A DNA stretch of 50,996 nt, from the IMG/VR virus record IMGVR_UViG_3300027743_000036, positions 1-50,996 of that record; one strand, 5' to 3'. A model generated the notes under the pieces. The model was not told the DNA's origin. It searched no databases and saw only the letters and a program-made list of their open reading frames with translations. This stretch comes from a virus. Shown one piece after another: positions 9,288-50,996 of the stretch; position 1 is the first letter of the stretch, and every line of letters starts with the position of its first letter. Both the position numbers and the translations under genes were made by a program.

Positions 9288-9290
9288 CCT

Positions 9291-10169: not shown

Positions 10170-10171
10170 TT

Positions 10172-10186: not shown

Positions 10187-10224
10187 GAGTATCGTGGGGG
10201 CACGGAGGCCCCGAGGGATGGGTG

Positions 10225-15939: not shown

Positions 15940-15947
15940 GGGGAGCT

Positions 15948-16115: not shown

Positions 16116-16138
16116 TCCACGATGAAGGAGGTCCATTG

Positions 16139-16321
16139 ATGTTGAGCCGGTACGATATTGCCCAGCATTTAGTCGCTCTTCTGTGTATTCCTATTGATGA
16201 TCCCTTTGCCCCCGCCGGAATTGAAAAAGATATTGAATTTGCGGAGCGATTTGCTCGTACTTTTGGAACCATAGAAAACATACAGGAAGTCCCTGACTTG
16301 GTGCGCGAGAGCTACGAATGA
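16139..16321 (+). CDS. Hypothetical protein, 60 aa
   Basis: Starts behind a very strong GAAGGAGG. A small acidic protein (EKDIEFAERFARTFGTIENI) with one Cys and no motif. Overlaps the next gene by four bases. Function unknown. Confidence 0.65.
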   Translation: MLSRYDIAQHLVALLCIPIDDPFAPAGIEKDIEFAERFARTFGTIENIQEVPDLVRESYE

Positions 16322-16536
16322 TCCACGACCCCGGCCAACTCCTCGCCTGGCTCCGCGCCAACACCGCCCGTGACAGGGTACTCAACAACGCCTTGAACAC
16401 CGGCGAGGCCGCGGTAACACCACAAGAGGGGGGCTGGCACGTCCGGGTAACGTCTCGCCGAGGAAATATCTACGGGGTCCGTGTCGTAGCGGACCCCGTG
16501 GGGATGCCGTGTCGTTGGTATAGGAGTAATGAATGA
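16318..16536 (+). CDS. Hypothetical protein, 72 aa
   Basis: ATGA overlaps on both sides place it in a coupled run of four small genes. MIHDPGQLLAWLRANTARDR begins it; the C-terminal half is a beta-rich WHVRVTSRRGNIYGVRVVAD. No recognised family. Likely small early or middle accessory protein. Confidence 0.62.
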   Translation: MIHDPGQLLAWLRANTARDRVLNNALNTGEAAVTPQEGGWHVRVTSRRGNIYGVRVVADPVGMPCRWYRSNE

Positions 16537-34816: not shown

Positions 34817-34831
34817 CTTTTCAATCTCCTA

Positions 34832-35884
34832 TTATGGAGAACCGAACACCTTTTTGAGTTCGGCTCCTACCTCTTGTACGGCTTGTTCATGGTTGTACGC
34901 ACCCGCGGCTGGGGCCGGGGTTCTGCTCCCGCTCGGCTTTAGCGTCACGCCCGCCGCCCGTTTCTGGACAGACTTCACGATCCGCTGCCGGACCACCTGT
35001 TCCACCATCGGCGCGGCGACTTCCAGATGCGCCCGCTCCAGAGCTTCCGCGGCACTCATTTTCATCCCTGTGGCTTCCGCCCCATCGAGGATCAACTGCG
35101 CCCGATTACACGTCTCCCGGCGATTGGCGACCTGACCCCCGGTCAGATGGGTCCAATCCCCCGCCTGGCCCGCCTTGCCGTAGAAATCCTCATACGGCTT
35201 CATATCATCCGCCCCGAAAAACGTGTTGATGGTCTGGCGGACGGCGATCTCCTCGTCAATGGATCGCTCGGGCGGCTGCTGCTGCACCGGCTGGACCGCA
35301 GGCCGCGGTGCCGGAGCATCGGGGATAAGCTCCCCGATCAAGTCGATAATCGGGTCATCCTCGTACTTCTCCTTAAGCTTCTTCATCACCGCCTCCTTGC
35401 GGCTCGGCTGCACTGGCGTAACCGGGGCGGGTTCCTTCAATCGCCGGGCCTGTTGACCCAATTCGCCAAGCTGCTTCGAGGAGGCGTTGACCATCTCATA
35501 GCACTTGGCAAGGGCCTTGAGGGCGAGTTCCGGGGACTGGTCATACAACTCGCCAATCTCCTCGGCCTTCATGCCCATGTGCACCGCTGCACGATAGTGA
35601 CTGTCGGGGATCGCCGGTTTATCGTCTGCCGGGGACTCTTCCGTTTTCGCCGGGGTAGATTCAACTTCTTCCTCTGCCGGTTTCTCTGCTAAAGTCTCGA
35701 CCACAACCGGAGTTTCCTTCTCCACTGGGTCGGACTTTGTGGGAGTTACCAGGGTAGAGGGAGTTTCCTCTGCCGGTTTCTGTTCGGGAGTCGCCGGGGT
35801 AGCACTTACCGAGGTCAATCCGCCATCAAAGTCAATCGCGTCAATCGCGGTTTTCAGTTCAGCCACAGCTTTCTCATCACCCAT
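34832..35884 (-). CDS. Capsid scaffolding protein, 350 aa
   Basis: Typical scaffold features: acidic low-complexity N-terminal 90 residues rich in Glu/Pro/Thr, then coiled-coil-like helices (RKEAVMKKLKEKYEDDPIID), a Pro/Gln linker and a basic helical C-terminus (VVRQRIVKSVQKRAAGVTLK) that would bind the capsid protein. Position between portal-side genes and capsid gene agrees. ATG behind AAGGGGA; overlaps the HNH gene by eight bases. Confidence 0.75.
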   Translation of the reverse strand: MGDEKAVAELKTAIDAIDFDGGLTSVSATPATPEQKPAEETPSTLVTPTKSDPVEKETPVVVETLAEKPAEEEVESTPAKTEESPADDKPAIPDSHYRAAVHMGMKAEEIGELYDQSPELALKALAKCYEMVNASSKQLGELGQQARRLKEPAPVTPVQPSRKEAVMKKLKEKYEDDPIIDLIGELIPDAPAPRPAVQPVQQQPPERSIDEEIAVRQTINTFFGADDMKPYEDFYGKAGQAGDWTHLTGGQVANRRETCNRAQLILDGAEATGMKMSAAEALERAHLEVAAPMVEQVVRQRIVKSVQKRAAGVTLKPSGSRTPAPAAGAYNHEQAVQEVGAELKKVFGSP

Positions 35885-36317
35885 TACTTGTCCCCTTGAA
35901 AGAATTCAGGTATTGGATCGCATTACTTAATGTCTCACAGTTCTCGCGGGCCATGCCGATCATCGGGTTACATAGTCCACACAAAAGTGCACGAACCCGA
36001 TCAGTTTGGTGGTCGTGATCCACGTGTGCCTCATCCAGCGTCATAGATTTCCCGCAAATCAGACATAAACCATGTTGTTGGATATACATAGTTTCAACTT
36101 GTTCCGGGGATAATCCGTACTCCAACCGCCACTCGCGATGGCGCATCCATTTTGGATTCTCCGCCGCCTTCCGCTTATTGTAATCAGCCCACCGCGCACT
36201 CATGCACTTTTTACATCGGCCCTCACGGCCGTCGAGTGCTCGTTTATCCGGGGAAAAATCAGCGAGATCTTTTTCCTTCCCACATTTGGAGCAAACCTTT
36301 GTCACCCCATCCTCCAT
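35877..36317 (-). CDS. HNH recombination endonuclease VII-like protein, 146 aa
   Basis: Two zinc-binding CxxC pairs at the N-terminus (CSKCGKEKDLADF, CKKC) precede the His-Asn/His metal core: GLCLICGKSMTLDEAHVDHD then HQTDRVRALLCGLCNPMIG. This is the endonuclease VII (T4 gp49-like) pattern. It may resolve branched DNA before packaging, which fits its place in the head operon, or be a free-standing homing nuclease. Start at 36317 in a TGATG overlap behind GAGGGAG. Confidence 0.85.
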   Translation of the reverse strand: MEDGVTKVCSKCGKEKDLADFSPDKRALDGREGRCKKCMSARWADYNKRKAAENPKWMRHREWRLEYGLSPEQVETMYIQQHGLCLICGKSMTLDEAHVDHDHQTDRVRALLCGLCNPMIGMARENCETLSNAIQYLNSFKGTSNG

Positions 36318-36658
36318 CACCACTCCCTCAGATGCGGAATCTTCTCGACTCCGCGAGCTTTCAAATAGGCTTCACGCTGTTTGTAGCGAGTCAGCACCGG
36401 ACGGCATTTGTTGTCGAGCGGGACATCCGGGTAGAGCCGGTGGTGCTCGTCAATCTGGCTCGGATGAATCGCCAGCGCATCCGAATGAAGCGGACGAGCC
36501 TCGTGGTCGCCGCCGTTCGTGGTCGTGTTCTCCGCGTGGTAGTCACGGTACATCTCCGCCGAACACTCCACACAAATCTCGGTGTCGTGGCAGTTGCTCA
36601 TGGATTTATCCACGACAAGGGTGTTCCCGCAATCGCATCGGTAGTGGTACTCCGGCAT
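36317..36658 (-). CDS. Zinc-ribbon (FmdB-like) protein, 113 aa
   Basis: MPEYHYRCDCGNTLVVDKSM with a later CVEC makes a FmdB/CxxC zinc ribbon at residues 7-35. The remainder is His- and charge-rich (HHRLYPDVPLDNKCRPVL). Start at 36658 chosen from GGAGG spacing over the GTG at 36664. Common beside head genes in phages; possible role in capsid assembly or DNA handling, not known. Confidence 0.7.
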   Translation of the reverse strand: MPEYHYRCDCGNTLVVDKSMSNCHDTEICVECSAEMYRDYHAENTTTNGGDHEARPLHSDALAIHPSQIDEHHRLYPDVPLDNKCRPVLTRYKQREAYLKARGVEKIPHLREW

Positions 36659-36660
36659 GG

Positions 36661-36918
36661 TCACTTCCTCCGCTTCGGGGACCCGAAAAACTTCTCAAAC
36701 TCCTCGGGACTGAGGGCGTTCTTTGCCGAGTCCAACTCCGCTTGGTCATGTTCCACAATAGTATCCACCGCGGTCTTGCGCTTCTTTTTTGTCGGCTTAC
36801 CCCAATCCTTTTCGGACATCTGCGGGTACTTTTTCTTCACCGCCGCCTTCCTCGCAATGGACTCACTCGCTGTTCTTGGCCCGGCTATGGCTCTCGTAGT
36901 GGGTTTGCTGAACATCAT
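36661..36918 (-). CDS. Small Lys-rich protein, 85 aa
   Basis: Contains basic clusters (IARKAAVKKKYPQ, GKPTKKKRKTAV) and a helical acidic middle (DTIVEHDQAELDSAKNALSP), ending FGSPKRRK. ATGA overlap with the portal gene. It may bind DNA or the portal; no family recognised. Confidence 0.65.
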   Translation of the reverse strand: MMFSKPTTRAIAGPRTASESIARKAAVKKKYPQMSEKDWGKPTKKKRKTAVDTIVEHDQAELDSAKNALSPEEFEKFFGSPKRRK

Positions 36919-38726
36919 TGACTCCTCACCGGCAGCATGGCTTGAGCCGGAGCGGCCCCCATCTGCGCGTTCTGGTTAAACTGCTGCATCGAGTCCATCG
37001 GGGCCGCGCGGCCTACCGGGAACCCGCCATTCTGTGTCGTGTTGCTCCCCCCGCCGTTCTTCTTGTTCTGCTTGCCCGCCGTCTGGGAATACCACTCCAT
37101 TCTCTGCTGAAACTCGGGGTCCTCGAATATCTCTGCCACGATCTCCGAGATCCCCATATCCTCCGCCACGCGCGTCAGATAGCGGGGCAGGTTGAACGGC
37201 TGGCCCGCCTGCATCGCCACTTGCAGAGCCATGAACGCTTGCGGGACGATGTTCGTGGTGAAGCCCTGCACCGCCTGCGCTCGCGCAATCGGGTCGAGCA
37301 CGGACATAGACCGGCGCACGATCTTGAATCCGAGGGTCTCGAACTCACCCGTCTTGTCCGCCGGAGTGAGCCACATCTGACGTTCCTGCCCGTTCTCCGC
37401 CCGCTTGATGAGCGGGATGCCCGGCTCACCCGGCTGGAACATCAGGTCATCATTGTGCAGGAACCACGCGCGCTTCCCCTGAATCTCCGCCGCGAGGTCA
37501 TACACCATGTCCCGCATATCGCCGACGCCGATAGCGGCATTCTGCTGGAGAATCTGTTGACCCGTCGCCTTGTCGGAATTGACTCCCGCGCCACTCATCA
37601 GGTCGGGATTGCCCGCCACGAGATTGAACCACCCGTAAAGGCTCTGCGTCATCGCCACAGTCTCAGGCGATGCGCCCTCGTAGGAGACGGTCTTCACGCC
37701 GTCCGGGTCTTCCGTGGCGATCATCTCGCCGTCCTCGGCGTCCCGCACAGCCTCGGCGACATCGGCACTGGAGGGGCGATAGAGCGTGACATTCTTCTGC
37801 CGGTCGGCCTGGGACATGGCCTTCTTGAACAGCTTATTCGCCATGTCGCTCAGGTCGCGCCATACGCCCACGGGAGCGACCGGAAAAGGATTGTCCGGCA
37901 CAGGCTGAGTCAGGGCCCCAAAAGTATACAAACCGCTCGGCGGACCATAGTAGTCCTCAATCTTGAGGAAGTCGCTGGTGACGGCCTCGGCGGGATCGGG
38001 GATATAGCATACCGCCCGCGCCTCGGGGACCCAAAGTTCCACGATATTCACATAGTCCTGCAAGTCCATCGTATGCAGGGCTTGATTGTCGTCTTTGCTG
38101 AGTTCGTCCGCTCGGTCATCCTTGGCCTTGGGACCTGCGCGGGGGAGCCGCTCAATGACACCGCGGTCGAAGCCATCGGCGTCGAGGAGTTTGTTACGTT
38201 CGATACGAATACGGTGCCCGATGAACGAGGCCCGATCCCATGCCGTGCAGCACGGATCGGCGGTCATATCATCGAGACTGATCCGCTCCGTGTAAATCTG
38301 GCCGGGATCGACCCGGACATCCGGGGCCACATCAAACAACTGCCCGCTGGCGGCGATGCTCGTTTTGAGCACGGTCATCCCGAAGCACATATCCACAATC
38401 GCCGCACGGAGAAGCCGAGCCCCTTTGAGTTGCTCATCGAGGTCGGTCAATGCAAGCCCTAGCTTCTCCGCGTACTCCCGCTGGCGGAGGATCTTGGTGA
38501 GGACCTGCGTGCATCCCTCTTTCTGCACGAGGTTCGGTACGAGCGATCTGACCGCGAGGAAGACCAGATTGATAGGTCTCTCGCCGGTGATGCCCTGAAT
38601 CTTCTCAAAGTATTCGTCTACGTATTGTTTTATGTGGTCCGCGCGGGCCTTGCGGAAATGGTCGAACCTCTTGAAGCCCTCGGCCACGGACTCGCTGAGC
38701 TTATTGGCGGATAGTTCTACTGCCAT
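36915..38726 (-). CDS. Portal protein, 603 aa
   Basis: Follows the terminase directly (three bases between). Size and layout fit podoviral or Caudovirales portals: helical N-terminus with RADHIKQYVDEYFEKIQGIT, central VWRDLSDMANKLFKKAMSQA (wing/stem helices), SGAGVNSDKATGQQILQQNA typical of the portal crown core, and a low-complexity Gln/Gly C-terminus. The twelve-mer forms the DNA entry channel and joins terminase and the adaptor. Confidence 0.88.
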   Translation of the reverse strand: MAVELSANKLSESVAEGFKRFDHFRKARADHIKQYVDEYFEKIQGITGERPINLVFLAVRSLVPNLVQKEGCTQVLTKILRQREYAEKLGLALTDLDEQLKGARLLRAAIVDMCFGMTVLKTSIAASGQLFDVAPDVRVDPGQIYTERISLDDMTADPCCTAWDRASFIGHRIRIERNKLLDADGFDRGVIERLPRAGPKAKDDRADELSKDDNQALHTMDLQDYVNIVELWVPEARAVCYIPDPAEAVTSDFLKIEDYYGPPSGLYTFGALTQPVPDNPFPVAPVGVWRDLSDMANKLFKKAMSQADRQKNVTLYRPSSADVAEAVRDAEDGEMIATEDPDGVKTVSYEGASPETVAMTQSLYGWFNLVAGNPDLMSGAGVNSDKATGQQILQQNAAIGVGDMRDMVYDLAAEIQGKRAWFLHNDDLMFQPGEPGIPLIKRAENGQERQMWLTPADKTGEFETLGFKIVRRSMSVLDPIARAQAVQGFTTNIVPQAFMALQVAMQAGQPFNLPRYLTRVAEDMGISEIVAEIFEDPEFQQRMEWYSQTAGKQNKKNGGGSNTTQNGGFPVGRAAPMDSMQQFNQNAQMGAAPAQAMLPVRSQ

Positions 38727-38729
38727 AGT

Positions 38730-40640
38730 TTACCCGTAATTAAACGCCCTCTGCCATCCCTTTGACTTTTTTTGGCTTACCTGCCACGCCCGAAATCTCG
38801 CCCCCCACGTACCCTGCGGCGCGGCCTCACTCTCCGCTTTAGGCTTTAGGACCTCGCGGTCCATCACGGTCAAAGCGTCAGCAATAACCCTGTCCCCGTG
38901 TCCCAAATATTCCGATTTATCCTTGTCCACCAACTCCGCGGGACCGCAACCGCCGCCCGGATACGTGATGTACGTTCGAGCCTGATCGAGGCTCTGTTTG
39001 TCCCGATTAACGATCCGGTTCTCAATCAAAGCCCGCTCGTAGGCGCGAAGCATGACGGCCTTGCGCTCGCGGCTGGAGTGCCAGCCCCATCGGGCGGTCT
39101 TCTTCTCCGCCACATTCCCCACCGTCTCGTCGCGGTAGTAGTAGGGATACTTCAACTCGTGGACGAACACGTTCCCGAAGTCGAGGCCGGGCCCGTTTTG
39201 CTCCCAAATGACAAACGGCAGACGTTGGGGAGCCCCGCCGCCCACCCAGAGACATAGAGCGGCAACGACTCTTGCGGCATTATAAGGAGCGGTTGTTCGG
39301 CTTGCCCATTTAGCGACGATCTCGCCTGTCTGTTTGCACTTGACCGAGACGACGCTTTCGCTCGTGCCTTCACCGCCAAGCCCTTTACTGAGGTCAATGC
39401 CGAGGATATAGCTGCGGCTCTGATCGAGCCGCCCGTTAGTCAACGGGACCCACACGGCCAATTCGCCGTCACGAGCCCGAGACAGAGACACCGCCTTGAG
39501 GTCGCGTGTGCGAAACAGTCGTGCCACGTCCGCGTTGGGGATCTTGTCGCGGAGTTTGATATTGAAGCGTTCCTTCGGCTCGCGGCAGTACAACGCCTGG
39601 TGCTTGTCGAGATCGGCGCGCGTGAAGAACGTATCGCCTACCGCGCCCTCCTGGGCGTAGATCTCCTTATCGACTTCCTTCCGGCCATTGCGGGCGATCT
39701 CATGCTCGATGAAGGGCGACGTGATCCGGTATTCCTTCGTCGTCTCATCCTGTAAGATAAAACGACCTGCGCCCTTGCGCGGGTGGTCCCACGCCATCAG
39801 GGAGAACACCTTGATCGTGCCGGAGTTCTTCCAGTTCGAGTAGCAACTGCCCGGCAGATCGACCGTCGAGTTCACGATACGGCAGGGACACACGGCGGCG
39901 GTGGACCGCTTGATGCTCTCGCCGTTGTTCATCTTCGCCATCTCATCAAGGAGAATCAGGCCCGCCCGGTCGCCGGAGAAGGCGGACTTGTTCGTGCTCT
40001 CGCCCGCAATCGTGGAACCGTTCTTCTCGTTATGCAGTCGCATACTCGTCCGATTGTCACGGCCCCGAACGAGGACGCCAGGCGGACACATCCACTCCGG
40101 CAGATAAGTATTTACGGTATCGTGCTTGAAAAACAGTGACTTACTGATCGGGCTGTCCACGAGGTCCTCAACACGGCTCATCTCTCGGAGTTGCAGGTTC
40201 GACCGACCGAACAGCCAGAGCCAGTGAATGAACAGGGCGATCAACCACGACGCCCCCATATCTCTCGACTTGTCAATGAGCCCGTCGTGCCCCTCAAGGA
40301 AACAGGCCAGGAGGAACTCGACCATCTCGTCCTGCCGCTCGTAGGTCAGGAACGGATGCAGGCTGACAGGCGACACGACGTAACTGTGCGTCTGTTGGCT
40401 GACCTCCATCTCCCAAAGCGTCCAGGCGAACGAGTTAATCCAGAACAATGCCGACTGCCTGCACGCTGCAAGCAGGTCTTTTTGCAGCACCGGATCGGAC
40501 GCCGCCTTATGCAACAGCCGCTCTCGGTAGGCGACGTTCTCCGCCTCCCGCATCGGGATCTTGAGGCCGGTCGCGGGATCGGTCCACCATTCTCTATTTG
40601 TTGGAAATGGTGTAGATAGCTCGGGTTTAACAGTCGTCAC
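38730..40640 (-). CDS. Terminase large subunit, 636 aa
   Basis: GTG start at 40640 overlapping the previous stop (GTGA). ATPase: Walker A variant KSRDMGAS at 124-131 and Walker B LILLDEMAK (D232, E233). Nuclease: GIDLSKGLGGEGTSESVVSV near 427 (first metal-binding Asp) and a later D-x-x-D-A segment (GHGDRVIADALTVMD). Drives DNA packaging through the portal and cuts the concatemer. The terminal redundancy of the assembly is consistent with headful cutting. Confidence 0.92.
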   Translation of the reverse strand: MTTVKPELSTPFPTNREWWTDPATGLKIPMREAENVAYRERLLHKAASDPVLQKDLLAACRQSALFWINSFAWTLWEMEVSQQTHSYVVSPVSLHPFLTYERQDEMVEFLLACFLEGHDGLIDKSRDMGASWLIALFIHWLWLFGRSNLQLREMSRVEDLVDSPISKSLFFKHDTVNTYLPEWMCPPGVLVRGRDNRTSMRLHNEKNGSTIAGESTNKSAFSGDRAGLILLDEMAKMNNGESIKRSTAAVCPCRIVNSTVDLPGSCYSNWKNSGTIKVFSLMAWDHPRKGAGRFILQDETTKEYRITSPFIEHEIARNGRKEVDKEIYAQEGAVGDTFFTRADLDKHQALYCREPKERFNIKLRDKIPNADVARLFRTRDLKAVSLSRARDGELAVWVPLTNGRLDQSRSYILGIDLSKGLGGEGTSESVVSVKCKQTGEIVAKWASRTTAPYNAARVVAALCLWVGGGAPQRLPFVIWEQNGPGLDFGNVFVHELKYPYYYRDETVGNVAEKKTARWGWHSSRERKAVMLRAYERALIENRIVNRDKQSLDQARTYITYPGGGCGPAELVDKDKSEYLGHGDRVIADALTVMDREVLKPKAESEAAPQGTWGARFRAWQVSQKKSKGWQRAFNYG

Positions 40641-40804
40641 GCACTGTCCTCGTTAGTGCGGTTCGCCTCTTCAAGAATCGCGTCTAACTTCTCTTTAACC
40701 GGACGACATACATGTGGATTGCCCACGGTTGGCCCCTCTGCCTCCAAATTGGCGTGGCAATAAGGACATTCCCACGGGGCATAATCAGTGTCAAACAGAC
40801 CCAT
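40637..40804 (-). CDS. Zinc-finger microprotein upstream of terminase, 55 aa
   Basis: MGLFDTDYAPWECPYCHANL with a later HVC gives a CxxC...HxC zinc site in the first 35 residues; the rest is a charged helix (PVKEKLDAILEEANRTNEDS). It overlaps both neighbours: the small-terminase candidate by 14 bases and the terminase by four. Probably translated with terminase; function unknown. Confidence 0.7.
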   Translation of the reverse strand: MGLFDTDYAPWECPYCHANLEAEGPTVGNPHVCRPVKEKLDAILEEANRTNEDSA

Positions 40805-41198
40805 TGAGTTCCTCCGCCATCGCGTTCAGCCGGTCCACGTTCATCCGCGAAATCTTCTGGGGCACCGTCTCCCGTTCCGACTCTTTCTCCTCGCCCTGTA
40901 TGCCGGGCTTGCCCTCTACGCGGTCCAGAACAAGTTTCACCACGTCGAGATTAGGCTCTACAATCTCCCCATCATTACCTTTATGCGGCAATGCTTTTTG
41001 CCACAGCCATCGAGCGAGTCGTTCCGCTTTACTCATCAACTTCGGCGGGCCGGGGTTTGGCCTGTCATCAGGAACTACTTCGGTAATTTCCTGCGCCACT
41101 GCGCGTAGGTACTCACTCAATACACGCCCTGCGCGTTGCTTATGGCCGCGCTCTAGAAGGGGCTCATTCTCGGGGGTTGGTTTGCTTTTCTTCGCCAT
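40791..41198 (-). CDS. Candidate terminase small subunit, 135 aa
   Basis: Start at MAKKSK (41198). N-terminus is basic; residues 45-100 (PKLMSKAERLARWLWQKALP and VVKLVLDRVEGKPGIQGEEK) resemble the helical part of small terminases or DUF5681-like packaging proteins. Position just before the large subunit supports the assignment, but an obvious HTH is not visible. Confidence is moderate for coding, low for role. Confidence 0.6.
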   Translation of the reverse strand: MAKKSKPTPENEPLLERGHKQRAGRVLSEYLRAVAQEITEVVPDDRPNPGPPKLMSKAERLARWLWQKALPHKGNDGEIVEPNLDVVKLVLDRVEGKPGIQGEEKESERETVPQKISRMNVDRLNAMAEELNGSV

Positions 41199-41248
41199 CC
41201 TCAACCTCATCCGGCAACTCTTCTCTCAACGCTTCTCTCAACACATCA

Positions 41249-41428
41249 TCACACATTCTTGTTCCTCTTCTTGTTCGGAGACCTGATCGGGTCAAATCGC
41301 AGTTGATACTTGCCCCCGCGCTTCCGCACGTATACCCGGTGCCTCAACCCACACCTACAACACTCAATTCTTGTATCGGGGGTATATCCCCACCACTCCC
41401 CGCCATACGCCTGCTCATAATTCTTCAC
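41249..41428 (-). CDS. Zinc-ribbon-like microprotein, 59 aa (GTG start)
   Basis: The GTG at 41428 overlaps the end of the upstream membrane gene and has GGAGGG nearby; an upstream in-frame ATG at 41530 would overlap that gene by more than 110 bases. The product GEWWGYTPDTRIECCRCGLR then HRVYVRKRGGKYQLRFD carries a CCxC..H cluster and a basic tail. Function unknown. Confidence 0.6.
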   Translation of the reverse strand: MKNYEQAYGGEWWGYTPDTRIECCRCGLRHRVYVRKRGGKYQLRFDPIRSPNKKRNKNV

Positions 41429-41663
41429 CCCGGACCCTCCACAATAGCACGACCGAGGCCGTCGCCCCGCCCAGGGCGCAGGCCACAATCTCAGCGAGCG
41501 TACCCGACCGGGCGAGCCACACTCCGACACTGATAGCCAGCATCTCGTCTACGAAGATAACGCCAGAGAGCCGCCATAGTTGCCGACGCTCCAAGGCGAG
41601 CCCCCGATAAAGGGCCAAGGACCATGTAATCAGTCCGGCGAGATACGCCAAGAGGAGGGTCAT
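41415..41663 (-). CDS. Membrane protein, 82 aa
   Basis: Hydrophobic helices at MTLLLAYLAGLITWSLALYR, VIFVDEMLAISVGVWL and GTLAEIVACALGGATASVVL suggest three membrane passes with Arg-rich loops. Could be a holin by topology, yet it lies at the packaging end of the operon, near the membrane protease. Coupled to its neighbours. Confidence 0.65.
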   Translation of the reverse strand: MTLLLAYLAGLITWSLALYRGLALERRQLWRLSGVIFVDEMLAISVGVWLARSGTLAEIVACALGGATASVVLLWRVRGEEL

Positions 41664-41681
41664 CGGTCTGCTCCGGGGTCA

Positions 41682-41870
41682 TTAACTTACTCTCCTGCCG
41701 TCACGTGTTATCTTTCCCTGCGCTTCAAGTTCCATATACCGTTGGTTGAACATCTCGCGGGTAATCAGCCCCAGGGCGAGGGCATACCGCAAGTCCCGCT
41801 CCTCCCGACCCGTGCGGCATGGCCGGAGGTCATCGCCTTTTCCCGCCCCCTCTACGTCACGAGGCATCAT
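41682..41870 (-). CDS. Hypothetical protein, 62 aa
   Basis: Starts in the end of the next upstream gene (14-base overlap) behind GCGGAG. DLRYALALGLITREMFNQRY reads as one helix-rich unit with a basic C-terminus (GKITRDGRRVS). No family recognised; probably a coupled accessory protein. Confidence 0.58.
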   Translation of the reverse strand: MMPRDVEGAGKGDDLRPCRTGREERDLRYALALGLITREMFNQRYMELEAQGKITRDGRRVS

Positions 41871-42102
41871 TCTCCGCCTCCACCGGCCATACCGCGGCGA
41901 TGTCCTTCTCCTGGATAATCAAAGCGGGTTTATCGCCGTAATACTCTGGATCATGTCCTCGGCAAACCAGATATAGTAGGGCAATCAATTCCTCTTTGGT
42001 AAAGTTATCCAAAGAACGCCCTTTATAGACTAATTTCCCGGCAGAGCTGTAATCCACTTCTTGTGGAGAAAGAGAGTATTTGATTGCGGCTAAAGACGAC
42101 AT
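41857..42102 (-). CDS. Hypothetical protein, 81 aa
   Basis: Begins one base after the end of the protease gene on the minus strand, behind AGGGG. Contains a helix (FTKEELIALLYLVCRGHDPE) and an acidic end. No motif recognised. Part of the small-gene group between the protease and terminase. Confidence 0.62.
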   Translation of the reverse strand: MSSLAAIKYSLSPQEVDYSSAGKLVYKGRSLDNFTKEELIALLYLVCRGHDPEYYGDKPALIIQEKDIAAVWPVEAENDAS

Positions 42103-42103
42103 A

Positions 42104-42949
42104 TCAGAACCCCTGGAAACTATGACTGCCGAACCCCTCCGCCGCCGGGGCCACCTTGCGGGCCTCCGGCTGGACGACCTCGAACCGGCACAGGGCGAAC
42201 CACGCCCGCACCGCCTGCACCGTGTCGCGGAACCGCGCCACCGGTACCGAGAAATTCAACGTCTCCGCCTGCCCCGCCACGAGGACTCCGATCACCCGGC
42301 CCTGCATGTCAAAACACGGCCCCCCGGAGTTGCCGGGGAAGGCGGGACTGGTGGTCTGAATCATGGCGTGCCAGCCATACCGCCGGTAGGAGTCCCACCC
42401 AGGCCGGTTGTAGAGGTCCCTCGGCCGGGCCGAGAGAATCCCCAGGCTGACGGTATTGGCATTGTCCTTGCCGAGCGGACTGCCGAGGATAAACACCGCG
42501 TCCCCCACCCGCAGCGTGTCCTCTTGGGCAAGCTCGGCGTAGGGCAGGTTCGGCTCCCGGCCCGCGAGGTCCAGTTGCATGAAGCTAATGTCGTTCTCGC
42601 GGTCCTCGATGACGTACTTGACCTTGTAGGTCTTGCCGTCGTCCAGCGTCACCGTGTAGTCGCCGGGCTCCGCGTCCGAGACGTGCTTGGCGGTGAACAG
42701 AATGCCGTCGGAGGTAATCAGGCACCCCGACCCCTGGCAGACCCCTACCTTGCCGACGTGGACCACGGCCCCGCGGACCTGCTCAACCTGGTCGGCGATG
42801 GAGAGCGGCTGCTGTACTACCTGTACGGTCTGTATGACCTGGGGCTGAGGAGTCAGATGACTCATCGAATAGACCCCCGCACCCACTACCACAAGGAAAC
42901 AGGCGACTACCACAGTCACGACCGCATGGAAACCGTCGATACGTCCCAT
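42104..42949 (-). CDS. Membrane-anchored HtrA/DegP-like trypsin-fold serine protease, 281 aa
   Basis: A signal-anchor helix (HAVVTVVVACFLVVVGAGVY) at residues 8-27 leads to a trypsin-like domain. The triad is visible: H89 in FTAKHVSD, D120 in RENDISFMQ, S208 in FPGNSGGPCF. No PDZ domain follows, so it resembles a short HtrA-type protease. The catalytic part should face the periplasm or outside. Proteases in phage head operons usually mature the capsid in the cytoplasm, so a membrane-anchored one is unexpected. It may instead act on the host envelope or on competing phages. Strong AGGAG start. Confidence 0.85.
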   Translation of the reverse strand: MGRIDGFHAVVTVVVACFLVVVGAGVYSMSHLTPQPQVIQTVQVVQQPLSIADQVEQVRGAVVHVGKVGVCQGSGCLITSDGILFTAKHVSDAEPGDYTVTLDDGKTYKVKYVIEDRENDISFMQLDLAGREPNLPYAELAQEDTLRVGDAVFILGSPLGKDNANTVSLGILSARPRDLYNRPGWDSYRRYGWHAMIQTTSPAFPGNSGGPCFDMQGRVIGVLVAGQAETLNFSVPVARFRDTVQAVRAWFALCRFEVVQPEARKVAPAAEGFGSHSFQGF

Positions 42950-42953
42950 ACCT

Positions 42954-43301
42954 CTACTCCTGCAACCGCGCTATATAAAGAGACGCCCCGGATGCCAGGG
43001 CCTCGTAGTGCAGCGTCGTGTATCCTACGGGCATGTGGAACACGAGAATCCCGTTGACCGGGACGTACCAGACGGCGTTAGCCGCGGTCGTCACGTCCGC
43101 CACGCCCATAATCCAGTCGCCCCCGGCGGTAGGGTCGGCCATCGCAACGTAGGTAGCCCCGGTGGTGAGGGCCTGGGTGTGGTCGCCCCCCGTGGCTGCG
43201 TCAGTGAGCTTGATCCCGGACGCCAGAACCGGGGTGTATCCGAGGGCACCGGGGGGAACCGTGAAGCCGCCATTGTCGATCAATCGTGTGGCTGTCGCCA
43301 T
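42954..43301 (-). CDS. Decoration-like virion protein, 115 aa
   Basis: First gene of the leftward operon, behind TTAGGAG. Beta-rich and Gly/Ala/Thr-rich (IDNGGFTVPPGALGYTPVLA, DWIMGVADVTTAANAVWYVP, NGILVFHMPVGYTTLHYEAL), similar in style to capsid decoration proteins. No membrane segment. It sits 237 bases downstream of the 27-bp element. Role inferred only. Confidence 0.68.
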   Translation of the reverse strand: MATATRLIDNGGFTVPPGALGYTPVLASGIKLTDAATGGDHTQALTTGATYVAMADPTAGGDWIMGVADVTTAANAVWYVPVNGILVFHMPVGYTTLHYEALASGASLYIARLQE

Positions 43302-43537
43302 CGTGTAGGTCTCCTAAAGTGAGCGTTGTGTGTGGGTCCCCTGGTCGTCAGTTATTCCCCGGTTGGGACGACTCCGCGCTACGCCGTATGGCGTTTCGGG
43401 GCGTGACCCCCTCATCAGGCGCAATAATACCGGGCCAGATGCCACCTGCGCAGGGACCCATTGGTGGCCCACGCACAACACCCACGTTAACGGGGACCTC
43501 GTGCGTGGCCCCTGGGCGGAGCCCGCGCACGCGTCCC

Positions 43538-43564
43538 TCTATAGTTCCCCGCAATCATGGGGTC
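43538..43564 (-). repeat. 27-bp dispersed element, copy 2 (upstream of the virion operon)
   Basis: Exact inverted copy of 619-645. On the minus strand it reads toward the virion operon, whose first ATG is 237 bases further. The conserved segment ends ACTATAGA, which contains a TATAGA box, but the hexamer 17 bases upstream (GGACCC) is not a -35 consensus. No ribosome-binding site or start codon follows directly at this copy. Confidence 0.8.
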
Positions 43565-43762
43565 CGGAGGTCAGATTTATGGCCTGTTTTGGTGGATTTT
43601 TTACAATTTTTTGTGTGGGTGTTGTAAGTGGTTGATATACCGGGGGTTATGGATAGCGGAGTGAGTTTGTCGGGTATTGGGAATTTTAGGTGTGGCGCGG
43701 GGGTCCCGGGTACGGGGGGCCCAAGGCGGAAATACCCCAGCAAGGGTGGTACCGCGGGGGGT

Positions 43763-43861
43763 CGCGCGCGCACGCACGCGCACGCGCACGCGCACGCGCA
43801 CGCGCACGCGCACGCGCACGCGCACGCGCACGCGCACGCGCACGCGCACGCGCGCACGCGC
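43763..43861. repeat. Alternating purine-pyrimidine CG/CA tract with 12 CACGCG copies
   Basis: 99 bases alternate strictly between purine and pyrimidine. Within them, 43781-43852 is twelve perfect copies of the hexamer CACGCG. Such CG/CA alternation is the classical requirement for left-handed Z-DNA under negative supercoiling. It is open in several frames on both strands but would encode only Ala/Arg or His/Ala repeats, so it is taken as non-coding. Copy number may vary between virions. Confidence 0.9.
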
Positions 43862-43871
43862 TCAACCCCAC

Positions 43872-43900
43872 GTGCGCCATACCCTTAGCGTATGGCGCAC
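43872..43900 (+). other. Perfect 11-bp hairpin beside the CG/CA tract
   Basis: Arms GTGCGCCATAC (43872-43882) and GTATGGCGCAC (43890-43900) enclose CCTTAGC. No T-run follows. The right arm sequence GTATGGCGCAC also occurs at 50270-50280, between the integrase start and the alanine-rich gene. It may be an initiator or repressor site or a cruciform. Confidence 0.75.
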
Positions 43901-43970
43901 AATTCCACGCACGTAACTACAGCATACACAAGCACTTACAACTATCTGCAACAATCTTACGAGAATTATG

Positions 43971-43999
43971 TTGACAATCGCAAGCTCCTGTGGTAGACT
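43971..43999 (+). promoter_or_regulatory. Sigma70-like promoter for the microprotein operon
   Basis: TTGACA (43971-43976), 17-base spacer, TAGACT (43994-43999), with TGTGG just before the -10 (extended -10 like). Transcription would start near 44006 and read the genes at 44070, 44167 and 44421, ending at the double terminators 44631 and 44706. Confidence 0.8.
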
Positions 44000-44008
44000 G
44001 TGCATAGT

Positions 44009-44018
44009 GCTGGCAAGC
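44009..44018 (+). promoter_or_regulatory. GCTGGCAAGC motif at the start of the transcript
   Basis: GCTGGCAAGC is nearly palindromic (GCT..GC.AGC), here extended to T...A on each side. The same ten bases lie at the same distance (10-11 bases) after the -10 box of the promoter at 45860. A third copy, inverted, is at 47595-47604. Possible operator overlapping the start site, or a 5' leader element. Confidence 0.6.
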
Positions 44019-44069
44019 ATGGGACGCCGGGTTGTAGAGGCAACATTAACCCTATTGAGGAGATAGAAC

Positions 44070-44150
44070 ATGAAACGGGTAGCGCAAGCGATCATCGGCG
44101 GTATAGTGTTTATCGCGGCAATTGAACTAATCATTCGGTGCATGCCTTAA
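44070..44150 (+). CDS. Single-pass membrane microprotein, 26 aa
   Basis: MKRVAQAIIGGIVFIAAIEL followed by IIRCMP: one transmembrane helix, basic N-terminus. TTGAGGAGAT lies correctly upstream. First gene after the promoter at 43971. Too short for family recognition; could be a toxin-like or regulatory membrane peptide. Confidence 0.6.
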   Translation: MKRVAQAIIGGIVFIAAIELIIRCMP

Positions 44151-44166
44151 GCAGAGGAGAAAATTC

Positions 44167-44391
44167 ATGAGAACACACTACAAAAACGGTGACGAACTCA
44201 GTCTACAACACACGGGATGTGATGGATGCAGTCCATCTATGGTCAATGGGCGCATCTGTCACGAGCAGGGGTGCCCGGACGCATGGAGAGACCAGGAACG
44301 CAAATGCAAGTGGTGCGGCAGTAAATTCCACCCGGTGGATCGGGAACAACTGTGCTGCGGCGAAGAGTGCGTACAATCCTACTGCAATTGA
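44167..44391 (+). CDS. Cys-rich zinc-finger protein, 74 aa
   Basis: Ten cysteines: HTGCDGCSPSMVNGRICHEQ, GCPDA, CKWCGSKFHP and QLCCGEECVQSYCN, arranged as at least two zinc-binding units. Similar small proteins occur in many phages of environmental bacteria. GCAGAGGAGA precedes the ATG. The stop codon is inside a 19-base repeat shared with the next gene. Confidence 0.75.
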   Translation: MRTHYKNGDELSLQHTGCDGCSPSMVNGRICHEQGCPDAWRDQERKCKWCGSKFHPVDREQLCCGEECVQSYCN

Positions 44392-44406
44392 GCCCCAATA
44401 TCGGGG
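44388..44406 (+). repeat. 19-bp repeat with hairpin at a stop codon, copy 1
   Basis: TTGAGCCCCAATATCGGGG covers the TGA stop of the gene at 44167 and folds as GCCCC/GGGGC around AATATC. It recurs at 44603-44621 in the same relation to the next gene's stop. Confidence 0.85.
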
Positions 44407-44420
44407 CGGAAGGAGACAAT

Positions 44421-44606
44421 ATGACTACAGAATATCGGCACCATCCAAACACGGGCGAATATCAGGCGCGCGATAAATGCCGACATTGTGACACCATAAT
44501 TAATCGCTGGCACCGATGTAGCAAAGTGCCGCGACTATGTTTGGTGGAACGTACACGAGCCTGTCCAAAATGTGGCAAGGAATCAGGAGTGCGGGCATAC
44601 TATTGA
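44421..44606 (+). CDS. Cys-rich zinc-finger protein, 61 aa
   Basis: Begins MTTEYRHHPNTGEYQARDKC and contains CRHCDTIINRWHRC and ACPKCGKESG, two zinc-binding pairs. Strong AAGGAG. Ends in the second copy of the 19-bp stop-codon repeat, followed by terminators. Function unknown. Confidence 0.72.
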   Translation: MTTEYRHHPNTGEYQARDKCRHCDTIINRWHRCSKVPRLCLVERTRACPKCGKESGVRAYY

Positions 44607-44621
44607 GCCCCAATATCGGGG
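44603..44621 (+). repeat. 19-bp repeat with hairpin at a stop codon, copy 2
   Basis: Same 19 bases as 44388-44406, again spanning the TGA of the preceding gene. Two consecutive Cys-rich genes with the same 3' end suggest duplication of a cassette or a conserved mRNA-end structure. Confidence 0.85.
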
Positions 44622-44630
44622 GACGGTATC

Positions 44631-44654
44631 AGGCCGGTCGATCCGGCCTTTTTC
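44631..44654 (+). terminator. Rho-independent terminator, first of two
   Basis: AGGCCGG-TCGAT-CCGGCCT followed by TTTT. Seven perfect pairs and a five-base loop, 25 bases after the last stop of the microprotein operon. Confidence 0.88.
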
Positions 44655-44705
44655 GTGCGCGTGCGGTGCTTTTTGTGCGCGTGCGCGCCCGGAAATGGGC
44701 GCGGA

Positions 44706-44726
44706 CTGCCATTTTGGCAGGTTTTT
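44706..44726 (+). terminator. Rho-independent terminator, second of two
   Basis: CTGCCA-TTT-TGGCAG followed by GTTTTT. Six pairs and a three-base loop. It acts as a backup to the terminator at 44631 and insulates the region that follows. Confidence 0.72.
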
Positions 44727-45720: not shown

Positions 45721-45880
45721 CTACTGTCCCCACACCCCCGGCGGCGTCTGCAACACGTCGCGATGTCCCCGGCCGGGCGATTGTCCCCGATACGCGCAGC
45801 AGCGCGCCGCGCAGTACATCGAAGGGCAGAAAAAAATTTCAAAAAAAGCGTATAAGCGCTTGACACGCCGTAAATCATAG
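45713..45880 (+). CDS. Cys-rich basic microprotein, 55 aa
   Basis: Overlaps the previous gene by eight bases, behind AAGGAG. Four cysteines in YCPHTPGGVCNTSRCPRPGD and DCPRY suggest a zinc knuckle; the C-terminus (KKISKKAYKRLTRRKS) is strongly basic. Its last codons contain the -35 box of the next promoter. Possible nucleic-acid-binding protein. Confidence 0.68.
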   Translation: MNSYCPHTPGGVCNTSRCPRPGDCPRYAQQRAAQYIEGQKKISKKAYKRLTRRKS

Positions 45881-45888
45881 TGTAAAGT
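45860..45888 (+). promoter_or_regulatory. Sigma70-like promoter inside a gene end
   Basis: TTGACA (45860-45865), 17-base spacer, TAAAGT (45883-45888). Followed at 45899 by the GCTGGCAAGC motif, as after the promoter at 43971, and a similar leader before a GAGGAGAT site. Would drive the winged-helix gene at 45936 and the genes behind it. Confidence 0.7.
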
Positions 45889-46094: not shown

Positions 46095-46131
46095 CCCCCG
46101 GACTACGGGCCACGACCGCGTGACCCGTCCC

Positions 46132-46178
46132 CGGCGATTATGCCGCAAGCCCCTACGGGGCAGAAAGCAGGGTGAAAG
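46132..46178 (+). other. Structured leader with GGGTGAAAG before the gene at 46180
   Basis: CGGC-GATTAT-GCCG hairpin, then GCCCC-TAC-GGGGC hairpin, then AGGGTGAAAGC directly at the ATG. The same CCGGCGAT...GCCG and AGGGTGAAAGCA pieces recur before the gene at 46854. The GGTGA sequence pairs with the 16S 3' end only in a shifted register, so it is an unusual initiation site. Confidence 0.55.
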
Positions 46179-46179
46179 C

Positions 46180-46557
46180 ATGGATATTAGACGAGCGTTG
46201 ATTAACCTGATAGATGTACCAGATGATGCGGAGCGCATCGACGTCGCCCGCGCCGCCCTTGCCGACGGGCCGACCCTGATGAGTGTCAGAATCAAGCATG
46301 AGCTTGACCTGAACCCGGATACAATCGGCGTCTATGCCATAGCCACAGTCCAGTACCCTATCGGCAGCGGGAGTTACCGCCTACAAACGTTTGAGTCCGG
46401 CGGGCTATGGGGTATTGCGAGCGACAGCGAGCCCGGCTATATCGAGGAAGTCGATCAAGAGCAACTTGACGACTTGCGCGGGCACCTGGAGCGTTTCGGC
46501 GTCAACGTCGAGAACTTCACAGTGTTGGCGGCTAAGGCCGCCGTGGTGAAGGAGTAG
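46180..46557 (+). CDS. Hypothetical acidic protein, 125 aa
   Basis: ATG chosen next to AGGGTGAAAGC. Contains a beta-rich middle (TIGVYAIATVQYPIGSGSYR, LQTFESGGLWGIASDSEPGY) and acidic ends, with a final helix (LDDLRGHLERFGVNVENFTV). Resembles small phage proteins of unknown role in accessory regions. Confidence 0.7.
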   Translation: MDIRRALINLIDVPDDAERIDVARAALADGPTLMSVRIKHELDLNPDTIGVYAIATVQYPIGSGSYRLQTFESGGLWGIASDSEPGYIEEVDQEQLDDLRGHLERFGVNVENFTVLAAKAAVVKE

Positions 46558-46780: not shown

Positions 46781-46822
46781 GCCCTGTCTCCGGTCGAGCG
46801 CGGACCATGTGCCGCGCCCATC

Positions 46823-46853
46823 CGGCGATAGTGCCGACTAAAGGGTGAAAGCA
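46823..46853 (+). other. Structured leader with GGGTGAAAG before the gene at 46854
   Basis: CGGC-GATAGT-GCCG hairpin followed by AGGGTGAAAGCA and ATG, closely matching the leader at 46132-46178. The region upstream (46790-46820) is GC-rich with further pairing. Confidence 0.55.
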
Positions 46854-47147
46854 ATGGAACGAGTGACGAAAGCAGATGTAACGTATTGGTTTGACCGGCT
46901 ATGTGCTGCGCTTGGCAAATCGAAAACGCCCTGGCGCACAGAAGACGGCAAATCTGTTGCCAATATTGGCGCATGGTACCTAGACCACAACCCCATATAT
47001 GGGGGTTATGTGGTCTATGAGATGATGAATGAAGGCGGCGGCGCTCGGGAACCATTCGGGCCTTATCGCAAGCGGCCCGCCGAGTTTGTCGCGGCGGTAC
47101 GGTTTGCCCTGGACGCGATAGAGATTGACCGTCAGGGTAGAAAATAG
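46854..47147 (+). CDS. Conserved phage hypothetical protein, 97 aa
   Basis: YWFDRLCAALGKSKTP, IGAWYLDHNPIYGGYVVYEM, MNEGGGAREPFGPYRKRPAE and a final helix (FVAAVRFALDAIEID) form a pattern I recognise from many tailed phages, function unknown. The ATG is preferred over the in-frame GTG at 46845. Confidence 0.78.
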   Translation: MERVTKADVTYWFDRLCAALGKSKTPWRTEDGKSVANIGAWYLDHNPIYGGYVVYEMMNEGGGAREPFGPYRKRPAEFVAAVRFALDAIEIDRQGRK

Positions 47148-47159
47148 AGGCTTTCACCC

Positions 47160-47206
47160 GGCCCGCGCTGTCCCCGGTCGTTAATCCCGGCCCGACGGCG
47201 CGGGCC
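47160..47206 (+). other. GC-rich hairpin leader before the gene at 47224
   Basis: GGCCCGCGC (47160-47168) pairs perfectly with GCGCGGGCC (47198-47206), nine pairs, with a structured 29-base loop. It is followed by GGGAGG and ATG. Another of the structured leaders in this accessory block. Confidence 0.6.
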
Positions 47207-47223
47207 ATAGGGAGGTAATAGAT

Positions 47224-47643: not shown

Positions 47644-47687
47644 GCCCCGACAGCAGCCGCCCGGAGCAAGACCGGGCCGGGGCTTTT
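47644..47687 (+). terminator. Terminator-like double stem
   Basis: Outer stem GCCCCG/CGGGGC (47644-47649, 47678-47683) followed by TTTT, with an inner stem GCCCGG/CCGGGC. Lies between the genes at 47224 and 47732. The T-run is short, so termination may be partial. Confidence 0.55.
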
Positions 47688-47731: not shown

Positions 47732-48076
47732 ATGAAGCGTGGATATCAGGAATTTCATCTGACAACGGGCGAGGTTATTTCGGTCCCTACAGACCTGGAT
47801 GGTGAATCGTTTGAGTGGCTCGGACAGTGCAGCTATGAGGAGCTTGGCCTGAAAGATGTTGACGATGACAGCGTCAATATTAAGTGCCTCAATGCTAGGG
47901 GGGATGACGTGGCACGTCAAGTTGAAATGCTCTACGACGCCGAGGAGTCCGCTCCCGATGCGACTGAAAAGGATGAGGAACAAGGGATCGACCCTATCGG
48001 AGAAATCTGGGCGGCTTTCTGTGATGCCACGGACTCCGCAGATTTCGCGCGGCGATTGGCTGAACTCAACCATTAG
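47732..48076 (+). CDS. Hypothetical acidic protein, 114 aa
   Basis: GAAAGGGATGG upstream. Very acidic in its second half (DAEESAPDATEKDEEQGIDP) with a helical C-terminus (IWAAFCDATDSADFARRLAE). Could be a DNA-mimic-like or adaptor protein, but charge alone does not show this. No family recognised. Confidence 0.7.
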   Translation: MKRGYQEFHLTTGEVISVPTDLDGESFEWLGQCSYEELGLKDVDDDSVNIKCLNARGDDVARQVEMLYDAEESAPDATEKDEEQGIDPIGEIWAAFCDATDSADFARRLAELNH

Positions 48077-48088
48077 CACATTTTTTAT

Positions 48089-48126
48089 CCCCGCCCGGCA
48101 AGCTCAGGTCCGACTCCTGAGCGGGG
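48089..48126 (+). repeat. 38-nt tRNA-minihelix-like element, copy 1
   Basis: Outer arms CCCCGC (48089-48094) and GCGGGG (48121-48126); inner stem TCAGG/CCTGA (48104-48108, 48116-48120) closes the seven-base loop TCCGACT, which resembles a T-loop (TTCGANT). The 3' strand is continuous, as in a tRNA acceptor stacked on its T-arm, while the D and anticodon arms are replaced by nine bases. Identical to 48409-48446. Confidence 0.75.
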
Positions 48127-48180
48127 CAAATGTGAGTAATGAGCAAAGGCGAAAGCAAGCTACAAATCAGGAGTGTAAGC

Positions 48181-48381
48181 ATGGAAACGAAACACCCACG
48201 GCCACACGATGCCGATGAAAATGACCACGGATTGGGCGTTGGCATAACATGCTCACATTGCGACGGTTACGGCACGCACAAAAACGGCCACATGTGCAAA
48301 TGGTGTGATGGTACTGGCGTAGTCACCTCATACCGGGACGGTACGATTGAATACGCAAACGGCAAACGAACTCTACCCTGA
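48181..48381 (+). CDS. DnaJ-type zinc-finger protein, 66 aa
   Basis: Start at 48181 behind AGGAG; an upstream in-frame ATG (48139) lacks a site. Two CxxCxGxG repeats, CSHCDGYGTHKNGHM and CKWCDGTG, form a DnaJ-like zinc finger. Such small proteins are frequent in phages and may bind single-stranded nucleic acid or unfolded protein. Confidence 0.78.
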   Translation: METKHPRPHDADENDHGLGVGITCSHCDGYGTHKNGHMCKWCDGTGVVTSYRDGTIEYANGKRTLP

Positions 48382-48408
48382 TGAGAACTGACGCATTTTT
48401 CAACCCAG

Positions 48409-48446
48409 CCCCGCCCGGCAAGCTCAGGTCCGACTCCTGAGCGGGG
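48409..48446 (+). repeat. 38-nt tRNA-minihelix-like element, copy 2
   Basis: Exact copy of 48089-48126. It is followed by GGGCC/GGCCC pairing and AGGGTGAAAGT before the gene at 48490. Upstream of both copies lies GCA followed by a T-run, so the similarity extends beyond the 38 bases. Confidence 0.75.
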
Positions 48447-48489: not shown

Positions 48490-48765
48490 ATGAAAATACG
48501 ATACGCAGTAGACGAATCGACTGGCTATGTAGTCAGTCAGAACATGGCGACAAAGGAGCTTGCCTTTGTCGTGATCGACTTTGACCAGATGGGGCCGGAT
48601 GATGCATTCGCTATTAAAGGCCATCTGGAGAAGTGCAGCATGTATGAATGGCCCGCATCGTGCTGGCCGTACTTGACCTGGACCCGCAAGATCCCCGTAG
48701 AGCTAAAAAATAGACATCGTGCATTTTGGGGCCTGGCACCCCTGCCCGTGGAGGCGCAAGTATGA
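48490..48765 (+). CDS. Hypothetical protein, 91 aa
   Basis: Preceded by AGGGTGAAAGT and the second minihelix element. VDESTGYVVSQNMATKELAF then VVIDFDQMGPDDAFAIKGHL suggests a small alpha/beta domain. ATGA overlap with the clamp-like gene, so the two may work together. Confidence 0.68.
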   Translation: MKIRYAVDESTGYVVSQNMATKELAFVVIDFDQMGPDDAFAIKGHLEKCSMYEWPASCWPYLTWTRKIPVELKNRHRAFWGLAPLPVEAQV

Positions 48766-50379: not shown

Positions 50380-50996
50380 ATGGCTACCCGCTACAAACTG
50401 ACAGACCAGGACGGATATACCCGTCGCGGCCAGTCGAACGAAACACTGTGGAAAATTGGTGAATGGGTAGAGGCGACTGGCAACCCACGCCAAGACTTAT
50501 GCTCAGACGGCTGGATACACTGGTATAGCCACCCCCTGTTGGCCGTACTTATGAATCCGATACATGCCTGCATAAAAAACCCCCGGCTGTGGGAGATCGA
50601 GACAGGCGGGGAGGAGAAGACAGATCACGAGTTGAAGGGTGGATCACGTCGCGTCCGGTCGATAAAGGAGTTGCCCGTGCCGCGGGTCACTACGGCGCAA
50701 CTGGTGCGCGTCGCAATTCTGTGCGGTAAGAAGGTCTACAAAGATGTCAAATGGCTGCAATGGGCCGATGGTTGGTTGTCCGGCAAGGATAAGTCCGCCC
50801 GCGCCGCCCGCGACGCCGCCGCCGCCTGCGCCGCCTATGCCGCCGCCGACGCCGCCTATGCCGCCCGCGACGCCGCCGCCGCCTGCGCCGCCGCCTGCGC
50901 CGCCTATGCCGCCGCCGACGCCGCCTGCGCCGCCTATGCCGCCGCCGACGCCGCCCGCGACGCCGCCGCCGCCTGCGCTGATACAACGATAGACCT
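50380..50996 (+). CDS. Alanine-rich repeat protein, N-terminal part (continues at 3-176)
   Basis: ATG behind GAGGAGGAAC. The first 135 residues form a globular domain (TRYKLTDQDGYTRRGQSNET; WVEATGNPRQDLCSDGWIHW; NPRLWEIETGGEEKTDHELK) resembling DUF7666-like phage proteins, from memory. Then comes GWLSGKDKSARAARDAAAAC and a long repeat of Ala with Tyr, Asp, Cys or Arg every three to five positions. The gene runs off the window and continues in frame at base 3. Total about 220 residues. Function unknown; repeat number may be unstable. Confidence 0.8.
   Translation, partial: MATRYKLTDQDGYTRRGQSNETLWKIGEWVEATGNPRQDLCSDGWIHWYSHPLLAVLMNPIHACIKNPRLWEIETGGEEKTDHELKGGSRRVRSIKELPVPRVTTAQLVRVAILCGKKVYKDVKWLQWADGWLSGKDKSARAARDAAAACAAYAAADAAYAARDAAAACAAACAAYAAADAACAAYAAADAARDAAAACADTTID
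50871..50996. repeat. Terminal direct repeat, right copy
   Basis: Identical to 5-130. It shows that the window ends are joined in the real molecule. Confidence 0.95.

Follow-up and report, generated by a model that had tools for sequence, protein, structure and literature searches.

Minihelices consisting of the acceptor stem and T-arm of transfer RNA (tRNA) are cleaved by ribonuclease P (RNase P) (PMC11143913). The enzyme gauges a 12-pair stack together with the TPsiC loop, it is aided by an RCCA sequence, although about a third of the B. subtilis tRNA precursors do not encode one, and polycistronic messenger RNA (mRNA) and phage RNAs are also among its substrates (PMC10731613). In the minihelix substrates described for bacterial RNase P (McClain-type AT1, pMini3bpUG; PMC11143913), an acceptor stem is stacked on a T-stem and T-loop, the 3' strand is continuous, and there is no D-stem or anticodon arm. 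Here we describe natural elements of this design in phages. The starting point was the 50,996-base virus record IMGVR_UViG_3300027743_000036, analysed from position 1 to 50,996 (the window), in which two identical 38-nucleotide (nt) copies, together called the twin, lie between small genes.

48089..48126, plus strand: twin copy 1, CCCCGCCCGGCAAGCTCAGGTCCGACTCCTGAGCGGGG, with an acceptor-like stem (48089-48094 paired with 48121-48126) and a T-arm-like hairpin whose loop is at 48109-48115
48409..48446, plus strand: twin copy 2, identical to copy 1

In our reading, to which we give just short of an even chance, the twin lies between cistrons as a mimic of the top half of a tRNA, is probably a divergent relative of an element widespread among phages, and is likely processed by tRNA enzymes. 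The laboratory substrates carry a 3' RCCA, whereas the phage elements, located at stop codons, have a D-loop-like linker and an NCWA tail; the twin further differs from those constructs in having C55 and 11 stacked pairs. The tRNA-like domain of transfer-messenger RNA (tmRNA) likewise combines an acceptor, a T-arm and a D-loop without a D-stem, but the phage elements are 40 nt long, have no mRNA-like part or tag reading frame and occur in several intergenic copies. In mitochondrial tRNA punctuation, polycistronic transcripts are processed by tRNA excision (term in PMC8601606), and there, too, tRNA-like units lie between same-strand genes with a stop abutting; unlike those tRNAs, our elements occur in phages and cannot decode, and their cleavage is one that we infer. 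The hisCD mRNA hairpin, the phi80 M3 RNA and the C4-type phage RNA (PMC10731613) are also hairpins of phages or polycistronic messages and fit a ruler of about 12 pairs, but they are single cases and do not show a T-arm/D-loop signature across many phages.

A search of 2.9 million viral contigs for the T-arm 17-mer of the twin, TCAGGTCCGACTCCTGA, gave a single exact match, which led to an array of minihelices in an 83-kb contig, G007. Of the proteins of G007 and the window that were compared, only a metallophosphoesterase-like and a tail-type gene are common to both.

G007 (IMGVR_UViG_3300005253_000011), 49.1-52.6 kb (9117-12580 of locus L036): eight tRNA-top-half minihelices arrayed between small genes

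A scan of G007 for the architecture, with no constraint on the sequence, found five elements in a 3-kb stretch of small genes, each with TATGGTA in the linker; eight elements are recognisable in total. In this design, an acceptor-like stem leads through the D-loop-like TATGGTA linker to a T-arm; the 3' strand is continuous and the anticodon arm is absent. Their T-loop is mostly the canonical TTCRANT, although one member has TCCGACT, the same loop as the twin, and a ACGTTTAACC-like sequence follows several of them. Judged by sequence, the G007-type elements belong to a large and widespread phage family, whose design is an acceptor-like stem, a D-loop-like (T)ATGGTA linker, a canonical T-arm and a 3' N-C-W-A tail, again with no anticodon arm. 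The pattern TATGGTA-N(5-14)-GGTTCGANTCC occurs in at least 120 viral contigs with a spacer length that peaks sharply at 8; a pattern one base stricter found 34 matches in 257 Gb of cellular genomes, where the spacer distribution is nearly flat. An outer stem of at least six pairs is present in 45 of the 99 distinct viral matches listed, which were not selected for pairing, compared to 4.7 when the 5' flanks were swapped between loci. A negative control pattern made with the twin's own linker (CGGCAAG plus T-arm) gave such a stem in 0 of 99; its matches are tRNA-like 3' parts, the best of them resembling tRNA 3' halves.

Covariation across the family is strong. In a seed set of 14 ungapped sequences, chosen for pairing, both sides change at all six acceptor pairs and at three T-stem pairs, and the covariation score is 1.15, compared to 0.23 for shuffled and at most 0.20 for slid alignments. 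The model-aligned set of 82 distinct rows, an alignment that leans toward its own structure, is 97% paired and scores 0.91 (0.17 when shuffled). Two covariance models, R1 and R2, recover copies missed by the pattern, with linkers such as GAATGGTT and GCATGGTG, and the eight viral contigs that we examined whole carry 3-8 copies each. The stack is 12-13 pairs long in 51 of 62 members and 11 pairs long in 8, and most 3' tails read N-C-[T/A]-A, with C at position 2 in 40 of 50, which recalls N-C-C-A. The G007 phage also has a permuted tmRNA gene (15876-16344 of locus L038; ARAGORN tmRNA*, tag ENVKLIPHGNFKEAA), on which R1 gives a weak match, in line with a tRNA-like domain that lacks a D-stem.

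In 47 of 76 members (7.4 expected), an open reading frame of 50 codons or more has its end between -12 and +20 nt from the first acceptor base, and often the last base of the stop codon is the first base of the stem. An ATG frame begins 15-60 nt downstream in 46 of 76 (17 expected), and the next start follows about 40 nt after the element. This placement behind a stop and ahead of a start suggests that the family elements punctuate same-strand gene pairs. The family extends to cultured phages, as the Mycobacterium phages George, Cuco, LittleCherry and SWU2 each have one strong copy (45-49 bits), unannotated and adjoining a stop codon.

Cuco, 738-778 of locus L327: minihelix beginning 3 nt past the stop of gp87
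SWU2, 802-842 of locus L324: minihelix between two annotated genes
George, 730-770 of locus L322: minihelix
LittleCherry, about 732-772 of locus L326: minihelix

The LittleCherry element differs from that of Cuco by one compensatory T-stem pair, and the George-type locus is common to about 40 phage records. At the gathering thresholds of Rfam 15, the 14 family loci searched gave only ordinary tRNAs elsewhere and no match to an element. ARAGORN at default settings made a tRNA call including the element at 1 of 16 family loci; with introns allowed, it over-calls the members as lying inside tRNAs. We found no published description of such phage elements, in a search that covered subscription journals and preprints thinly, so that an earlier description may exist; the family is apparently unnamed so far.

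We propose that the minihelix is co-transcribed with its flanking genes and would be recognised by the tRNA-maturation enzymes of the host, with RNase P acting at the 5' edge and RNase Z or exonucleases at the 3' edge. The polycistronic mRNA would then be cut just past the stop codon and the flanking mRNAs would gain defined ends, the upstream message ending at its own stop and the downstream message gaining a short leader. Several features of the family fit this proposal. The stack of 12-13 pairs is of the length that RNase P measures, and the dimensions, the T-loop, the D-loop-like GG and the C74-like position in the tail fit both RNase P and RNase Z. The placement at stop codons fits a cut that leaves the upstream message ending at its stop and a short leader downstream. 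To judge by these sequence features, members of the family are probably sites of processing by RNase P and/or RNase Z; alternatively, they could protect 3' ends, titrate tRNA enzymes or serve as docking sites for tRNA-modification enzymes. The broader proposal, that phages carry a widespread class of non-decoding tRNA top halves at the stops of small genes, that host tRNA-maturation enzymes cut the mRNA there and that the twin is a divergent local version, is tentative, and we put it somewhat below an even chance.

We return to the twin. Sequence and repeat analysis confirmed the two identical plus-strand copies of 38 nt that the initial annotation had reported. The fold it had drawn is possible, with a six-pair outer stem (CCCCGC/GCGGGG), a five-pair inner stem (TCAGG/CCTGA), the 7-nt loop TCCGACT, a 9-nt linker on the 5' side and no unpaired base between the two stems on the 3' side. 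The stems can equally be drawn as 5 + 6 pairs, since C6 and C15 are both possible partners of G33, and the computed minimum free energy (MFE) structure gives the inner hairpin 7 pairs. In either drawing, an acceptor-like stem is stacked on a T-stem over 11 pairs with a continuous 3' strand. The D and anticodon arms are indeed missing: the twin also has no 7-pair acceptor and no tRNA-model call, ARAGORN finds 0 tRNA genes in the window, and the copies have no Rfam match. We also weighed a bulge-loop pseudoknot (CGG with CCG) for the twin but dropped it, as the third copy described below keeps only two of its three pairs, which is not enough to make the case. Copy 1 starts 12 nt past the stop at 48074-48076 and lies 54 nt ahead of the start at 48181, and copy 2 starts 27 nt past the stop at 48379-48381 and lies 43 nt ahead of the start at 48490. 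Both are thus behind a stop and shortly ahead of the next start on the same strand; in the family, the stop offset is mostly -8 to +16 nt and the start offset is 15-57 nt. The copies lie in intergenic gaps, and the leaders in which the initial annotation had placed them are putative.

The combination of a T-arm hairpin with an outer stem in the twin is not due to chance. A T-arm hairpin was defined as G-TYCRANY-C on a stem of five or more pairs. When the contig was simulated 400 times with a Markov model, such hairpins arose 0.09 times per 51-kb window, and none of the 400 simulated windows contained one that also carried an outer stem of five or more pairs with a continuous 3' strand. In 331 kb, comprising the window and related contigs, the two copies of the twin are the only hairpins that qualify, the approximately 280 kb of related contigs holding none. 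Given the architecture and the local composition, the probability that a G-C-closed T-loop arises with no more than one mismatch is 0.0026. These figures somewhat overstate the case, because the feature was picked post hoc by a reader free to notice anything. The simulations argue against the most serious competing explanation, in which the twin and a third copy of its architecture would be intercistronic GC-rich hairpins of the ordinary kind, acting in mRNA stability, in control by RNase III or RNase E, or in weak termination, and the likeness to a T-loop would be accidental. Against it also stand the identity of the copies in linker and loop, which goes beyond what a stem function needs, and the sequences that follow them, CAAATG and ATTTAA, which are no U-tract; neither copy is listed in a terminator scan. 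The stability of the twin, taken alone, is unremarkable (z-score -1.16, with 24 of 200 shuffles equally stable).

The third copy, which the initial annotation had not listed, lies in the preceding gap.

47645..47682, plus strand: third copy, CCCCGACAGCAGCCGCCCGGAGCAAGACCGGGCCGGGG, 38 nt, matching the twin in the outer CCCCG/CGGGG and in the lengths of its linker (9 nt) and loop (7 nt)

An extra outer pair (47644/47683) brings it to 6+6 pairs, 12 stacked. It differs from the twin by compensatory changes at three inner pairs, its MFE structure is exactly the twin-type architecture (92% of the ensemble), and only TTTTG follows downstream. When matches of these exact dimensions were sought with Watson-Crick pairs and no G-U, the whole contig gave three, all on the plus strand in consecutive gaps, and 1000 shuffles of the region gave none. 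The loop of this copy, AGCAAGA, is not a T-loop; the architecture is thus kept without the T-loop, which weighs against the strongest tRNA reading and speaks for ordinary hairpins. The same explanation gains from the neighbouring gaps, most of which fold into GC-rich hairpins unrelated to the twin, two with a z-score below -2.5, and from the failure of the family models to recover the twin. We regard ordinary hairpins as a doubtful but substantial possibility.

Further points count against membership of the twin in the family. R1 ranks the two copies first in the window, with only 12.9 bits and an E-value of 0.69, and R2 gives 8 bits. The linker, CCCGGCAAG, keeps GG and A and lacks the D-loop-like ATGGT; the T-loop has one mismatch to the canonical TTCRANY, the C at position 55, inside a closing G-C that is present; the stack is 11 pairs long, compared to 12-13; and the NCWA tail fits copy 1 only. 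A DNA comparison of the twin region with phage records gave no similarity of note, and no homologue sharing the flanks of the twin was found. The exact twin core has no match in the viral or genome collections, the proteins adjoining the twin led to no relatives, the related phages reached via primase and terminase do not have the element, and Rfam at a permissive threshold gave only chance matches in the twin region. The covariation expected of such an element is strong in the family, with the twin itself not significantly recovered. By the family's own models the twin is a non-member; what it has in common with the family is the architecture, the GG of the linker and the position behind a stop and ahead of a start, and its loop is one mismatch away from the canonical T-loop. 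On these features it is a plausible divergent relative and an unproven member, and the likelihood that it functions like a member is, in our estimate, a little under even. The likeness to tRNA proposed in the initial annotation was fruitful in leading to the minihelix array and is weakened by C55 and the third copy. Of the roles that it had offered, a processing site fits the covarying, stop-proximal family, whose models miss the twin, and the data here do not separate a processing site from a decoy or a stability element. BLAST leads to Lactococcus phage WRP3, Streptococcus Javan87, Synechococcus S-SRM01, Arthrobacter Glenn and others were dropped, each being either a tRNA or a match to the T-arm only. 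Phage Glenn has an unannotated tRNA-like sequence (about 1437-1525 of locus L323) with a paired acceptor, the T-arm GGTTCGATTCC and a tail CTAAC preceding TTGACA.

The identity of the two copies is 100% exactly over the paired segment, the flanks are dissimilar, and the copies are confined to gaps between small genes, with no further 38-mer in the rest of the contig. This would also be expected if a mobile or regulatory DNA cassette had recently been duplicated and either functioned as DNA or simply spread among the small genes. In T4-type phages, PeSL cassettes combine a stem-loop with an early promoter and are repeated in the gaps of small early genes. The twin resembles them as a repeated intergenic stem-loop among small genes, but it has no promoter unit attached, the collections searched hold no exact copies in other genomes, and the compensatory changes of the diverged third copy point to selection on RNA pairing, which makes a cassette improbable. 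Less probable still, and in our view very much so, is that the 8-mer GGCAAGCT within the twin is a DNA site for protein binding and the hairpin incidental.

44009, 45899, 47594 (minus strand), 48097, 48417 and others, in the window: sites of the 8-mer GGCAAGCT

The 8-mer occurs 7 times in the window, compared to 1.4 expected, a number that 0 of 100 shuffles reach, and the extended form GCTGGCAAGC follows two promoter-like sites (43971-43999 and 45860-45888), at 44009 and 45899. However, the twin itself accounts for two of the seven sites, both strands carry sites, some of them in contexts where the hairpin is absent, and the third copy does not have the 8-mer. It is possibly an operator or leader motif.

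The genes of the window include a P4-type primase (D5_N/DUF5906), an A-family DNA polymerase, an SU10-type portal and an integrase. Small plus-strand genes follow one another at 46-49.4 kb with gaps of 40-200 nt, and three of them flank the twin.

47732..48076, plus strand: gene upstream of copy 1, 114 amino acids (aa), no family
48181..48381, plus strand: gene between the copies, 66 aa, with a weak DnaJ-type CxxCxGxG zinc motif below the Pfam cut-off
48490..48765, plus strand: gene downstream of copy 2, 91 aa, no family

Two other gaps of this operon (46095-46180 and 46781-46854) hold a different pair of hairpins, ending CCGGCGATWRTGCCG ahead of the start codon, and a very stable hairpin (z-score -3.8) lies in the gap 47148-47223. 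Elsewhere in the window, a long alternating purine-pyrimidine repeat, (GCGCAC)n, at 43764-43877 separates the late and early gene blocks and is prone to form Z-DNA, and the open reading frame at 50380 contains an Ala-rich low-complexity repeat (50796-50984; GCC codons, AARDAAAACAAYAAADAA-like) that reaches the contig end. A contig of another sample (L009, 1-10589) is 99.98% identical to 34123-44711 of the window and ends short of the twin region.

A covarying RNA family represented by dozens of diverse viral sequences and by cultured mycobacteriophages, with no match in Rfam 15, merits annotation even without a mechanism, and at present tRNA finders and gene callers overlook it. If the processing reading is true, direct testing would be possible in the mycobacteriophage isolates, and the defined mRNA ends in phage operons would be explained. 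Phages would then use RNase P, an enzyme kept by nearly every host, as an mRNA cutter, and the 40-nt tRNA mimics behind stop codons would be the bacterial-virus counterpart of mitochondrial tRNA punctuation.
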